From a virus, in the IMG/VR virus record IMGVR_UViG_3300025011_000155, positions 1 through 29,091 of that record: 29,091 nucleotides of DNA. The stretch is one strand, 5' to 3'. The notes under the pieces were generated by a model, which saw nothing but the letters and a program-made list of their open reading frames with translations, was not told the origin of the DNA and ran no database searches. Below, piece after piece: positions 3,267 through 10,429 of the stretch. Made by a program: the position numbers and the translations under genes. Within the stretch, counting starts at the first letter, position 1, and each line of letters opens with the position of its first letter.

Positions 3267-3527
3267 TTACTCCAGATCAGTTAAATGCATTCTCCTGGTT
3301 ACTTTGGTTTGGCTGAATTTCTGCCTTACAAAGTCTATAGATTCTTGACTTGGTGGAGATTTTGGATCTTGGCAAAGATAAATAATTCCGTAGTAAAAAG
3401 TAAGTTTGATAAGCTGACTAGTTGTTGTTAATTCAGCTGGATCAATGCCTTTAGCCAGTAGGCCGTCACGTGCTTTGGCAAGGTCTTCAATAGTCATGCG
3501 AGTTGAAACTACGCGGGCTTTACTCAT
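3267..3527 (-). CDS. Ribbon-helix-helix-like protein, paralogue 1, 86 aa
   Basis: It starts at ATG 3527 after AAGGAAC. Residues 7-45 read VSTRMTIEDLAKARDGLLAK, then TTTSQLIKLTFYYGIIYL. This fits a beta-strand, helix, loop, helix arrangement of the MetJ/Arc/CopG ribbon-helix-helix type. It aligns with the proteins at 3865-4146 and 9056-9634 at the strand (TRM/FRL), at the LA motif of helix A and at the SQxxK of helix B. These proteins generally act as dimeric DNA-binding regulators. The C-terminus (VRQKFSQTKVTRRMHLTDLE) is basic. The fold call rests on pattern only. Confidence 0.7.
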   Translation of the reverse strand: MSKARVVSTRMTIEDLAKARDGLLAKGIDPAELTTTSQLIKLTFYYGIIYLCQDPKSPPSQESIDFVRQKFSQTKVTRRMHLTDLE

Positions 3528-3864: not shown

Positions 3865-4146
3865 TTATACCTCTTGATGAGTGACTTTTTCCTCATCTGC
3901 TAAGGATGCCAGGTTGATTTCTTTCTTTTTTGGATTGATGATAAAGATCTGGATTTCTTGCATAATGTCTTGGTCAACTTCATCTGTTTGACCAATGGTC
4001 ATTTTTGCCAGGTAATCTGTGTAGAGGATCTTAACCAGTTGGCTAAGGCTTGTAAGTTGGAAGTTCGGCTCCAGGCTGCGAACAATCTGAAGGCCACGAG
4101 CAAGCTGATGGTTAGTGAGACGAAATGTTATGATTGGACTGCTCAT
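3865..4146 (-). CDS. Ribbon-helix-helix-like protein, paralogue 2, 93 aa
   Basis: The N-terminus MSSPIITFRLTNHQLARGLQ, followed by IVRSLEP and SLSQLVKILYTDYLAKM, matches the start of 9056-9634 (MSSPHMSFRLNHYQLAKALR, LVTLEP, SLSQAAKLIIIDWISKH) almost position for position. The strand-helix-helix pattern fits a ribbon-helix-helix DNA-binding dimer. The C-terminal third is acidic and variable. The ribosome binding site is weak (GGTAAT) and the start lies 2 nt after the stop of 4149-4595, so coupling is likely. A regulatory role is inferred from fold pattern and paralogy. Confidence 0.75.
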   Translation of the reverse strand: MSSPIITFRLTNHQLARGLQIVRSLEPNFQLTSLSQLVKILYTDYLAKMTIGQTDEVDQDIMQEIQIFIINPKKKEINLASLADEEKVTHQEV

Positions 4147-6629: not shown

Positions 6630-8639
6630 TTAGAATTGTACCTTGATGGTACGGTTGAAAGATCCGCTTACCTTAATGATTATTTCATCAGGCTGAGTGA
6701 ATGAAAAACCAAGTCCAGAAAGCTGATTATTTGAGCTTGATACTGTCATTTTATTGCCAAGGACTTCGAAGACTTTTCTATGGGTTTTTAAATCCCCCTT
6801 AAGGAATTCATTGAAAAATCCTCTTGGGGTTTCTAAGTTTAAACATTTATCCAATATAAAGAATATATGCTTGTTTCCGTGCATAGAAGAATTTTCCCAA
6901 TAATTTGGTGAGTACATAATCATTTTGGTTTTGTGAAACTTGGTTGTTTTAATTCCCCATACTGTTACTTCTGATTCTTGGTGAGGAAGACTACTTATTA
7001 TTGAAAAAGTTCCATTTTCGTCAAGCCTAACTTCTACAAAAGTGACTTCTTCATCATTTCTTAATCCTTTAGAATATGAAAAGGTAAAAAGCTTTCCCTC
7101 AAGTTCAAGCTCTGCTCTGATTGGATTCAGCATATTGTCTCTTTGCTGATAGTTGTGAATGTAAAACTTATAAGTACCTGGAAGCATTTTGCATTTATTT
7201 GTATAGATGATGTTTTCTACTGGCTTTTCTCTATGTCCATCTATACCATTAGCATCTACGTCGAGTATTCCAGATGATGGAAAGCACAGTCTAACGGAAG
7301 TATAATAAATATGATTTTTTGGTTCTTGGCAATGTATATCTAAATCTGTTTTTCCATCCCAGGCAGCTGAAAATCTCATTATTACGTTCTCTGTCCTCCC
7401 ACCGGCAATTTTAACTCTTTCTTTTATTGAATCAGTTACATTACCATTATATACGTGACAAAAGTTATTTTCCCACTGAAACAAAGATGGTGCAGAAGCA
7501 TCTTCTGGAGCAATTAAACTCATAAGTTTGTTTTGATGTTTGTTTTCAAACAAAATTTCTATACTTTCTGCATTTGGAATTACTCCAGATACGAAATCTT
7601 CTATTGATATTTTGTCAATCTTATTTAGGTTTTGTGGTAAATTTGAATGATCACTTAATAGTAAGTCAAATGGACTGCTTTTCATTACAGACTTGATTGA
7701 ACGGTCGGCAAAGATAACATCATTAATACTTATATCTTCAGCAACTGCAAATCTTCTTTGTAATGAGTTTTCTAAGCCAAGTTCAATAATTTTCTCTTGT
7801 GCTTGTTTGATCATTTTTGGTGTTATAACTGCTGAAGGTCTCTGATAGTTTTGTGGAGCAACTTTTGATTCGTAAGCACTTACGGCAATGTTAATATCTT
7901 TTCCTTCAGAAAGATCAACTAACAATGTTCCAATTACTGTGTTTCTTATTCTTACTGAAGATGCTTTGATATTTTGCCAAGGAAAGATTGCTTTGTTTTC
8001 TGTAGCAAGATATTGTTTTTGATAAATATCAAAATCTTTTACTAAGTTAAGGAATTCTGAGCCTCTGTATATTGAATTTTGATTAATTAGGTCAATTACA
8101 GTTTCTACAGCATCGGGATTGATTTCTGTTAATGCTCGTTTGAACATTTCTGCATTTGTATTTGATTCACTAAATTTGGTTCCAATAATTGAATCTTTGC
8201 AAACAAGTTGTTTAGGCATAGCTGAATAGAAGTGATGCCAAGTTATAGCCTCATTATAATTGTCTTTATTTGGCTTTCTTCCAGCACTAGATTCTGTAGT
8301 AAGAAAAATACTTTCAATTGTACTGGCTTCTACGAGTATTGCTAGTTTTGATGCCACTTGATTGTAAGGAAATTCAAGGTTTGGAAGATTCCAGATTGAT
8401 ATCTGCTTTTCATCTTGAATTGCCACAACATTGCCGATTGCTTTAATGAAGCTGCGGCAAGCCTGGCAATCATGTTCTGATCTTTGTCGAAATATTTTAT
8501 TTGTACCTTCAGGAAAAGCTTTTAAGTATTCAGAATAAAGAGTTTCTCCAGATATTGTTGTGCGGAAAAGGTTTGATTTGTTAGAGAGAAGTTGAAAGTT
8601 GCTATTTATTGCTTCTGCAAATGGTGAAAAGTCACTCAT
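6630..8639 (-). CDS. Large uncharacterised phage protein with DUF2135/YfaP-like segment, 669 aa
   Basis: It starts at ATG 8639 after AAGGAGAAACATC. The N-terminus contains FPEGTNKIFRQRSEHDCQAC (about residues 42-61), a cysteine pair that may bind a metal, followed by FIKAIGNVVAI. This signature is familiar to me from many phage and mobile-element proteins of unknown function. Residues 420-525 (AAWDGKTDLDIHCQEP, IYYTS, GILDVDANG, PGTYKFYIHNY) resemble the DUF2135/YfaP beta-sandwich. No Walker motif, nuclease motif or signal peptide is seen. It has its own promoter about 130 bp upstream and heads an operon with the 130-residue coiled-coil protein. Confidence 0.85.
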   Translation of the reverse strand: MSDFSPFAEAINSNFQLLSNKSNLFRTTISGETLYSEYLKAFPEGTNKIFRQRSEHDCQACRSFIKAIGNVVAIQDEKQISIWNLPNLEFPYNQVASKLAILVEASTIESIFLTTESSAGRKPNKDNYNEAITWHHFYSAMPKQLVCKDSIIGTKFSESNTNAEMFKRALTEINPDAVETVIDLINQNSIYRGSEFLNLVKDFDIYQKQYLATENKAIFPWQNIKASSVRIRNTVIGTLLVDLSEGKDINIAVSAYESKVAPQNYQRPSAVITPKMIKQAQEKIIELGLENSLQRRFAVAEDISINDVIFADRSIKSVMKSSPFDLLLSDHSNLPQNLNKIDKISIEDFVSGVIPNAESIEILFENKHQNKLMSLIAPEDASAPSLFQWENNFCHVYNGNVTDSIKERVKIAGGRTENVIMRFSAAWDGKTDLDIHCQEPKNHIYYTSVRLCFPSSGILDVDANGIDGHREKPVENIIYTNKCKMLPGTYKFYIHNYQQRDNMLNPIRAELELEGKLFTFSYSKGLRNDEEVTFVEVRLDENGTFSIISSLPHQESEVTVWGIKTTKFHKTKMIMYSPNYWENSSMHGNKHIFFILDKCLNLETPRGFFNEFLKGDLKTHRKVFEVLGNKMTVSSSNNQLSGLGFSFTQPDEIIIKVSGSFNRTIKVQF

Positions 8640-8770
8640 GATGTTTCTCCTTGTCTAGGAATGTTGATCTAAAGGCTAATTAAAATACTTTTATTTAATA
8701 CTTACCAGAATGACATCCTTCATCACGCCCTGGCCATACCATTTGTGAGGTTCTGGATAGTGTATAGTAT

Positions 8771-8799
8771 AGTGTACCGTATACAATAGGGTTTGTCAA
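8771..8799 (-). promoter_or_regulatory. sigma70-like promoter for the 669-aa gene
   Basis: Reading leftward, TTGACA (8799-8794) is followed by a 17-bp spacer and TACACT (8776-8771). A TATACT lies a few bases further on. It precedes ATG 8639 by about 125 nt. Confidence 0.55.
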
Positions 8800-8997
8800 C
8801 GGAAAAACACGTGTACGGTTTACGGTTGTGGCGGGTGCTACGTTGTGGTAGTTGGTCGGTGGCGTGTATATAGTATGGTGGCTGGGCTGAATAGGGCCAG
8901 GAAAGGCGTAGGATGCCCGTAGCAGGCCGGACCGGGAAAACGGGTATGGTGGTATGTCCGTGTAGCGGATGGCGTGTTGGTCGTTCTGGCGTGTTGG

Positions 8998-9041
8998 CGG
9001 GCATAACGGAAAAACTGTGTAATTTCACTACGTTATGCCCG
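8998..9041 (-). terminator. Stem-loop after the 192-aa gene, possible terminator
   Basis: CGGGCATAACG (8998-9008) and CGTTATGCCCG (9031-9041) form an 11-bp perfect inverted repeat around 22 nt. It lies 14 nt past the stop of the leftward gene 9056-9634. No T-run follows on the minus strand, so intrinsic termination is uncertain and an operator remains possible. Confidence 0.4.
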
Positions 9042-9055
9042 TCCATTCGTTGTGC

Positions 9056-9634
9056 TTATTCCTCGCTATCAATCCAATCTTTCGGCGGGCTGAAATCAGT
9101 TATAGTTGATATTTCTGACTCTGTGTTATTCGGATCATGAAATTCTGATGGTTTGAGGCGAGTTTGTCTTGTTTGAAAAGATAACTCTATTTGGGTATCA
9201 ATCTCTTTTTCTTTTAATTCTTGTGCTTCTTTTAATGCATGTTCACGTCTGAGCTGCTCGAAGAGTCTGGCGTCTTCGATATCTCTTTGTATTTGTTGGG
9301 CTGATTTCTGTGCCTGTTCTTTTATCTGAAATTCTTGCTGTGCCTGGAATGGTTGAGATTGTGCCTTTGCTTGTGCCATAATCTGCCGAATGGTTGTATA
9401 TGGGTCGATTCGATCTACAGGCAGAGAGATGATTGTCTCAATGGCTTTTATGTCTGCTTGAGCACATTCTAACGATGTGTGGATTGAATGCTTTGATATC
9501 CAGTCGATGATTATTAGCTTGGCTGCCTGGGATAATGATGCTATTGGTTGGTCGGGTTCAAGAGTGACGAGTATTCTTAATGCTTTGGCGAGTTGGTAAT
9601 GGTTTAGGCGAAAGGACATGTGAGGGCTTGACAT
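9056..9634 (-). CDS. Ribbon-helix-helix-like protein with coiled-coil tail, paralogue 3, 192 aa
   Basis: The start chosen is ATG 9634 (MSSPHMSFRLNHYQLAKALR), with ACGGAG 8 nt upstream. The frame stays open further upstream only because it runs through repeat DNA. Residues 6-50 read as strand (MSFRL), helix (HYQLAKALRILVTLEP) and helix (SLSQAAKLIIIDWISKH), the ribbon-helix-helix pattern, and are clearly homologous to 3865-4146. Residues 75-160 are Gln/Glu/Ala-rich coiled coil and the C-terminus is acidic. Its promoter lies inside an array of 10-bp-phased heptamers. I infer that it binds them and controls itself, and perhaps acts at an origin or partition site. Confidence 0.75.
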   Translation of the reverse strand: MSSPHMSFRLNHYQLAKALRILVTLEPDQPIASLSQAAKLIIIDWISKHSIHTSLECAQADIKAIETIISLPVDRIDPYTTIRQIMAQAKAQSQPFQAQQEFQIKEQAQKSAQQIQRDIEDARLFEQLRREHALKEAQELKEKEIDTQIELSFQTRQTRLKPSEFHDPNNTESEISTITDFSPPKDWIDSEE

Positions 9635-9660
9635 AATGGTTGCTCCGTTAGTTGAGGTTG

Positions 9661-9815
9661 TGGTGCGTTGGTCGGTTGGTGACCTGTGGTGACGCTTGGT
9701 GACAGTATAGCACGGGTTGGTGACGTTTGTCAAGGGTTTGGTTACGGGTGGTGACATTTTTTGGTGACGGATGGTTATGTTTTGGTGCCGTTTGGTGACG
9801 TTTGGTGACAGGTTG
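9661..9815 (+). repeat. Phased heptamer array, cluster A (about 12 TGGTGAC-like boxes)
   Basis: TGGTGAC occurs at 9677, 9687, 9697, 9718, 9749, 9762, 9793 and 9803. Variants are TTGTCAA at 9728, TGGTTAC at 9739, TGGTTAT at 9772 and TGGTGCC at 9783. Start-to-start distances are almost all 10-11 bp or twice that, so boxes sit on one face of the helix. All point the same way. The array covers the promoter of the ribbon-helix-helix-like gene 9056-9634. Confidence 0.8.
9704..9733 (-). promoter_or_regulatory. Strong sigma70-like promoter for the 192-aa gene
   Basis: Leftward TTGACA (9733-9728), an 18-bp spacer and TATACT (9709-9704) preceded by TGC, an extended -10. Heptamers lie over the -35, in the spacer and immediately downstream of the -10. 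This arrangement fits repression by a protein bound to the array. Confidence 0.65.
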
Positions 9816-9920
9816 CTTGTGTAAGTGGTTGATATTGTTGGGGAATTTGAGGGCTGTGTACGGTTGGCGTCAAAAGAGTCCACGCGTACACCTCCCCCCC
9901 GTCTCTGGACCTCGTATTTA

Positions 9921-9946
9921 AGTATTTAATAAAAAAATTAAATACT
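9921..9946. repeat. AT-rich perfect palindrome with A6 loop
   Basis: AGTATTTAAT (9921-9930) and ATTAAATACT (9937-9946) flank six A residues. This is the most AT-rich spot in the control region. It lies between heptamer clusters A and B and is bordered by C-rich tracts near 9890-9900 and 9956-9966. It could be a duplex-unwinding element of an origin or a bidirectional hairpin. Confidence 0.55.
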
Positions 9947-9983
9947 AAAACAGACACCCCTCTCCCTTCATGACACAGGGGGG

Positions 9984-10021
9984 TGGTGTACGGTTGGACA
10001 CTATTGGCCACTTTTGGACAC
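9984..10021 (+). repeat. Phased heptamer array, cluster B
   Basis: TGGTGTA at 9984, TGGACAC at 9995, TGGCCAC at 10005 and TGGACAC at 10015 give 11, 10 and 10 bp steps. Orientation is the same as in cluster A. The 10022-10068 stretch that follows has no boxes. Confidence 0.7.
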
Positions 10022-10068
10022 ACAGGTTCGTAACTCTTTGAAATAATTACCTTTTTCTAGCTTACCTG

Positions 10069-10253
10069 TGGCCATGTGGTGCCAATACGGTGACAGCCGG
10101 TGCCAATTATGCGTGTCCAGCCGGTGCCTACTGGTGACAGGTGTATACGTTTAGTGTCCGTTTGGTGCCATTTATGTGTGTCCAAGTGTCCACCTTTGGA
10201 CACCTTTGGTCACGTTTGATTACGGTTGTCACCACCTGGACACCCTTGGTCGT
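10069..10253 (+). repeat. Phased heptamer array, cluster C (about 15 boxes)
   Basis: Boxes include TGGTGCC at 10077, CGGTGAC at 10088, CGGTGCC at 10098 and 10122, TGGTGAC at 10132, TGGTGCC at 10163, TGGACAC at 10197, TGGTCAC at 10207, TGATTAC at 10217, TTGTCAC at 10226, TGGACAC at 10237 and TGGTCGT at 10247. The last six keep a nearly perfect 10-bp period. GTGTCC elements at 10153, 10177 and 10185 look like degenerate copies. No gene is supported here. Confidence 0.7.
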
Positions 10254-10315
10254 GTTATTCCTGTTCACCATCGAACAGCCATACAACCATCATATAATCG
10301 CTAGTCATGCAAGCA

Positions 10316-10417
10316 AGGTTGTTAGGCATTTTACAGGTTGTTAGGCATTAGCAATAAGAAAAGCCCGAAAAGGTTACAGGAACCTAATCGGGCTAGACTG
10401 ATAACAGGTTGTTAGGC
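10316..10417 (+). repeat. Three direct repeats AGGTTGTTAGGC
   Basis: AGGTTGTTAGGCATT occurs at 10316-10330 and 10335-10349, and AGGTTGTTAGGC at 10406-10417. The second and third copies bracket the terminator hairpin, and each is preceded by CAGG-type sequence. They lie between the heptamer array and the gene 10430-10609. They may be regulatory or recombination sequences; the function is unknown. Confidence 0.6.
10352..10394 (-). terminator. Rho-independent terminator for the leftward 10.4-11.7 kb genes
   Basis: Read on the minus strand, AGCCCGA pairs with TCGGGCT (10394-10388 with 10368-10362). An inner AGGTT/AACCT stem and a five-base loop extend it, and TTTTCTTATT follows. It lies 36 nt past the stop of 10430-10609, where transcription from the 11.5-11.9 kb promoters should end. 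Confidence 0.75.
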
Positions 10418-10429
10418 TTTTTTATTGTT

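Follow-up and report, generated by a model that had tools for sequence, protein, structure and literature searches.

The window analysed here (29,091 bp) is one whole virus record and matched a 68,080-bp record, G001, whose ends were joined through the window by a 134-bp overlap; G001 is thus an effectively complete, circularly permuted genome. Its early genes run leftward and its late genes rightward, and an array of short repeats is found close to where the early side begins, at 55.35 to 55.96 kb and 2.2 kb from the terminase genes. Beside the array, at window positions 9056 to 9634 on the minus strand, an open reading frame with relatives in IMG/VR encodes a 192-residue protein which, from alignment, is ribbon-helix-helix (RHH)-like and the presumed type A reader of the repeats. 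This is an early gene on the strand opposite to terminase and encodes no terminase subunit. The replication genes of the phage specify DNA polymerase A, a DUF3987 primase-helicase, SSB, ligase, a Sak4-like protein and exonucleases; no recognisable replication initiator was found among the phage proteins scanned, and no integrase was detected in six relatives. The polymerase A (G001 28977 to 31499, minus strand) is fused with a uracil-DNA-glycosylase domain, and a ParB-like N-domain is fused with a DNA methylase at G001 32384 to 33814 on the same strand.

The repeats are TGGTGAC/TGGACAC-like heptamers, which a preliminary description had proposed to be phased at 10 bp. When 7-mers with up to two mismatches were compared at a 10-bp lag over positions 9641 to 10260, 99 matches were obtained versus 12.0 ± 6.7 in 300 dinucleotide shuffles of the same region (z = 13.0; none of the 300 reached 99), showing that the array is real; self-match was also high at lags 20, 21, 31, 41 and 44. 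In a lag-10 scan of the 68-kb G001 by 600-bp stretches the array ranked first, with 99 matches against 42 for the runner-up, and in four long relatives, too, no other stretch was as strongly 10-bp-periodic. All 17 representatives had excess upstream self-match at 8 to 11, 20 to 22 or 31 bp, corresponding to about one, two or three helical turns. With a position matrix built from the array we located 29 boxes between 9658 and 10245, and nothing comparable was clustered elsewhere in G001; the steps 9677-9687-9697, 9995-10005-10015 and 10197-10207-10217 listed earlier were all present.

Two features of the array departed from that description. The boxes do not share a single orientation, since 24 read TGGTGAC-like on the plus strand and five on the minus strand (9874, 10111, 10176, 10184 and 10226); and, while the proposed extent of about 600 bp agrees with the span of the 29 boxes, the array is discontinuous, being interrupted at 9812 to 9980 by a stretch that holds most of an inverted-repeat core, one IHF-consensus site and just two weak boxes. 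Self-match, matrix and phasing together defined a promoter cluster of 10 plus-strand TGGTGAC-like boxes at 9674 to 9811; matrix and phasing defined plus-strand core-side boxes in 10-bp steps at 9981 to 10023; and self-match and matrix defined distal boxes at 10074 to 10245, eight on the plus strand and four on the minus. For the promoter cluster the suggestion that the boxes occupy one helix face was borne out (R = 0.88 at 10.5 bp, with a null of 0.0003 when the best period is taken). With a phasing of one helical turn between boxes, bound dimers would lie on one face of the DNA, where they could form a cooperative ribbon. We rejected the possibility that the array consists of coding repeats, as its 10-bp period is no multiple of three and the reading frame that precedes the ATG ends after 4 to 92 codons in the relatives; an RNA element was also rejected, there being no Rfam match.

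The first cluster had been thought to span the promoter of the 192-residue gene, and a promoter scan confirmed this: a sigma-70 promoter with an extended −10, TTGACA-18-TATACT, reads from 9733 to 9704 on the minus strand, and boxes at 9694, 9715 and 9736 overlie it. Most relatives have a TTGACA- or TTGCAA-type promoter in the equivalent place; at four loci (L006, L007, L018 and L025) several hundred bases and a small reading frame separate the array promoter from the RHH-like gene. As its promoter lies under the boxes, the protein can repress itself, and comparison of the relatives supports the view that it would do so through these boxes. A second promoter-like site, TTGACA-17-TACACT, was found at 8771 to 8799 on the minus strand inside a GT-rich non-coding stretch (about 8650 to 9050); it precedes the gene at 6630 to 8639, whose 669-residue product belongs to PHROG 1735 (E = 1e-244), of unknown function.

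A first scan of IMG/VR yielded 26 relatives of the 192-residue protein and a scan with the alignment as query yielded 33, while searches of GTDB genomes, phage records and plasmids yielded none, and chromosomal or plasmid kin were rejected accordingly. The protein is modular: the first approximately 50 residues (9485 to 9634, minus strand), which form the presumed RHH-like DNA-reading domain, occur as two exchangeable types, A (SSPHMSFRLNHYQLAKALRILVTLEP) and B (SNPTVSFRISDYHLARGLRAIRTLEP), and the last approximately 32 are almost invariant, the conserved tail KPSEFHDPNNTESEISTITDFSPPKDWIDSEE (9059 to 9154, minus strand) being present with either N-domain in the common form KPSEFHDPN..S.VTDFSPP. 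No Rep initiator, winged-helix or other, was matched in Pfam, PHROG or PDB sequences, and the absence of any PHROG match extends to lambda O. A match to Pfam DUF87/HerA (E = 0.0035, below the family's cut-off) was judged spurious. Two small tailless N-domain paralogs, at 3865 to 4146 and 3267 to 3527 on the minus strand, lie in the same early operon and are conserved in the relatives; they might act at the array as competitors or co-regulators.

An RHH fold of the N-domain, as proposed in the preliminary description, is plausible from its sequence. In an alignment of 34 N-domains most rows contain a strand-like [ST]-F-R-[LI] followed by two helices, and position 5 is variable and R9 invariant, the pattern expected of a DNA-reading strand of the Arc/Mnt kind. 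AlphaFold2 models of the protein were of low to middling confidence; the N-domain (pLDDT 73) had helices at 12 to 25 and 34 to 50 following an SFRL stretch with no assigned structure. The order of strand-like SFRL, helix and helix thus agrees with the proposal, but sequence, fold and profile searches gave no significant match to an RHH family (Pfam, PDB sequences, a PDB fold search and hhalign with Mnt/Arc), and Foldseek with the AlphaFold2 model gave no match at E < 0.001. The strand motif resembles that of P22 Mnt (PHFNFRM versus PHMSFRL here); just ten residues align, with a probability below 1%, in a comparison with Mnt/Arc that is a weak test because it has single sequences on one side, and homology to the 192-residue protein is putative at most. 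Since the searches brought no confirmation, we use "RHH-like" as a lead.

The relatives also bear on what the N-domain recognises, the preliminary description having suggested that the adjacent gene product binds the operator. This suggestion was well supported. Type A loci contain 7 to 27 TGGTGAC/TGGACAC-like boxes and 0 to 4 B-boxes; type B loci contain 23 to 43 GTAAACA/GCAAACC boxes and 0 to 2 A-boxes, so that box letters match N-domain type in 23 of 23 arrays. These box counts, on which the co-switch rests, are post hoc, the A and B patterns having been picked after the sequences were read, and the effect is all-or-none; per-locus EM motif consensus drifted to low-complexity solutions, for which reason the counts alone were used from that analysis. 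On a tree of the upstream gene the type switched at least three times (four by parsimony); the independent pairs available for a sign test, three to four, are too few for significance. Over two of the switches the flanks are 83 to 88% identical, and the tail was retained through the type switches. Two loci (L021 and L022) carry both a short tailless type B gene and a tailed type A gene, and their arrays are A-like, which indicates that the array follows the tailed protein. From the co-switch in all 23 arrays over at least three switches we conclude that the domain reading the heptamer boxes is very probably the N-terminal one.

The core enclosed by the boxes is an imperfect inverted repeat of 130 bp at 9874 to 10003 (GTACACC and a C-tract on one side, a G-tract and GGTGTAC on the other). 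Its single-strand folding gave z = −5.4 here and z < −5 in four of six loci, with −4.0 and −2.8 in the other two. Compensatory changes occurred at 13 of 22 pairs, with a covariation of 0.283 versus 0.108 after shuffling and at most 0.113 after sliding. These changes indicate that the symmetry of the inverted repeat matters and leave aside which form it takes; they are expected for a hairpin or cruciform and equally for paired inverted protein sites. Within the repeat, at 9917 to 9950, lies an AT-rich hairpin, AGTATTTAAT-TTTTTT-ATTAAATACT, a candidate unwinding element; the core, this hairpin included, is conserved in every array compared. The AT core ranked fifth among the least stable 30-mers of G001 and second in G003, and fell outside the top eight in G004 and G005. 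An IHF-consensus site on the minus strand, TATCAACCACTTA, which fits WATCAANNNNTTR exactly, lies at 9822 to 9834, and a second IHF-like minus-strand site with one mismatch, TTTCAAAGAGTTA, lies on the far side of the core at 10031 to 10043. At least one exact IHF consensus (WATCARNNNNTTR) was found in each of the 23 arrays, at a density of 1.70 per kb in arrays versus 0.22 per kb genome-wide; these matches to the consensus WATCAANNNNTTR at a conserved position mark predicted IHF-binding sites. No DnaA box was found in the array. Two contigs (L028 and L076) end within the G-tract/AT hairpin core, which would be expected either of an obstacle to assembly or of a physical end.

The sequence comparisons point to a self-controlled nucleoprotein centre of the approximately 68-kb phage at 9650 to 10250. 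The boxes, the IHF-consensus sites, the AT-hairpin core and the constant-tailed autoregulated reader are together best explained as an origin, and we put at about one in two the probability that the array serves the phage as an autoregulated origin of replication following a lambda-O-like logic. The N-terminal domain would recognise the boxes, which enclose the conserved inverted-repeat and AT-hairpin core flanked by IHF-consensus sites; these steps have comparative support. We infer further that the bound protein and IHF bending might strain or open the AT-rich hairpin core, and that the C-terminal tail might recruit phage replication proteins, either the DUF3987 primase-helicase or its loader. 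In four genomes a detrended GC-skew minimum lies approximately 4 to 6 kb away from the array, which agrees with an origin; the minimum coincides, however, with the divergence point of early and late genes, and transcription would account for it just as well.

In lambda O the N-terminal part is type-specific for the repeats and the C-terminal part binds a partner. The locus here would be a phage origin of similar organisation, in which the DNA-reading end can be exchanged and the partner-binding end stays constant, and it likewise has direct repeats adjoining an AT-rich stretch and a reader with a type-specific N-terminal end. In ori-lambda there are four iterons, each of 18 bp, and the AT-rich part measures 38 bp (PMC3349717). 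Unlike those four iterons, which lie inside gene O, the approximately 29 heptamers are spaced at one turn and lie before the gene; no relation of the reader to O was detected, and the region further includes a long inverted repeat and IHF-consensus sites. Iteron plasmid origins such as those of pSC101, R6K and P1 also combine iterons with an AT-rich unwinding element and an IHF site (PMC4980987). The locus resembles them in its repeats, AT-rich element and IHF-consensus site, and differs in that its boxes are short and its reader RHH-like, whereas theirs are 17- to 22-bp iterons with a winged-helix Rep and DnaA boxes. The parts are therefore of known kinds (an RHH-like autoregulator, iterons, IHF and an AT core); we found no description in the literature of this combination, or of a reader and its array switching together repeatedly. 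Iteron initiators known to us belong to the winged-helix or AAA+ proteins, and none of them is RHH. A novel kind of origin, in which an RHH-like initiator with an exchangeable reading domain and a constant recruiting tail forms a one-face ribbon on approximately 30 heptamers surrounding an IHF-flanked AT hairpin, is a possibility that we advance tentatively.

The main rival to the origin is a pure autorepressor or immunity operator, in which a long cooperative array silences its own early promoter, the core is architectural and, perhaps, the repressor-operator type sets immunity or superinfection specificity. It would account well for the boxes that overlie a strong promoter along its −35, spacer and −10, and immunity regions classically show the kind of joint exchange of DNA-reading domain and operator seen here. 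However, half of the array and the entire core lie approximately 150 to 530 bp upstream of the promoter, and the inverted-repeat core and IHF-consensus sites are kept in all relatives, beyond the needs of autorepression. The lack of an integrase in six relatives makes lysogenic immunity in particular less likely, and overall we consider this explanation unlikely.

Partition or replication had been left as alternatives in the preliminary description, and the IHF-consensus sites, AT-rich hairpin core and direct repeats favour replication. As a partition centromere, the iterated sites would be bound by an adaptor of the ParR or omega/ParG-like RHH type whose tail contacts a motor. ParR-parC, an RHH protein with direct repeats at 10 to 11 bp in R1 and pB171, resembles the locus in its RHH-like N-domain plus tail and in its repeats at the protein's own promoter; ParR and parC families also vary together in binding specificity (R1, pB171 and Clostridium perfringens plasmids; PMC9426499), much as reader and sites differ jointly here. 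Similarly, omega, the ParB of pSM19035, is an RHH protein whose targets are non-palindromic WATCACW heptads, placed over promoters and differing in orientation (PMC9499535); the heptads here are likewise of mixed orientation and cover a promoter. Unlike ParR-parC, the locus has many more repeats, an inverted-repeat AT core and IHF-consensus sites, which are no defining parts of parC or parS, and no motor gene was found; unlike omega, whose heptads are contiguous at 7-bp steps and whose partner is ParA, its boxes are 10 to 11 bp apart. ParA-type (PF13614) motors were absent from six long relatives and tubulin-type (PF00091) motors from six relatives, with positive controls in both cases, and the neighbouring genes scanned encode no motor NTPase; the actin-type ParM/StbA profile (PF06406) gave no match either, but its controls were equally silent. 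The lack of a ParA or tubulin motor makes partition less likely, and we regard it as improbable. Repeats with IHF sites also occur in lambda cosB and attP, and these shared features, together with the two contigs that end inside the core, would fit a cos/pac- or att-like packaging or recombination site, which we nevertheless hold to be very improbable given that no integrase was found, that the terminase genes are 2.2 kb away and the reader is an early, other-strand gene rather than a terminase subunit, and that a poly-G hairpin hindering assembly would also end contigs at the core.

Among the relatives, a short DNA-binding domain and some 30 targets switched jointly at least three times and the tail and core DNA were recognisably kept; this natural series makes the recognition code of the RHH-like domain, and the joint change of array and reader specificity, directly testable. 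If the locus is indeed an origin, it would reveal where replication starts in a family of uncultured phages, and its initiator would be of a class apparently undescribed for phages, as far as we know; with an RHH fold as well, the initiator class would be new.

Two further observations concern the arrangement of these loci. A 17.8-kb contig (3300020045_011884) carries a type A locus (L068) at about 6.9 kb on the plus strand and a type B locus (L076) at about 17.5 kb on the minus strand, the latter stopping inside its core; the contig is either a chimaera or derived from a two-site genome. Between the upstream gene and the array, at window positions 10316 to 10422, three AGGTTGTTAGGC repeats flank a GCCCGA...TCGGGC hairpin, and similar copies of this element are present in the relatives.
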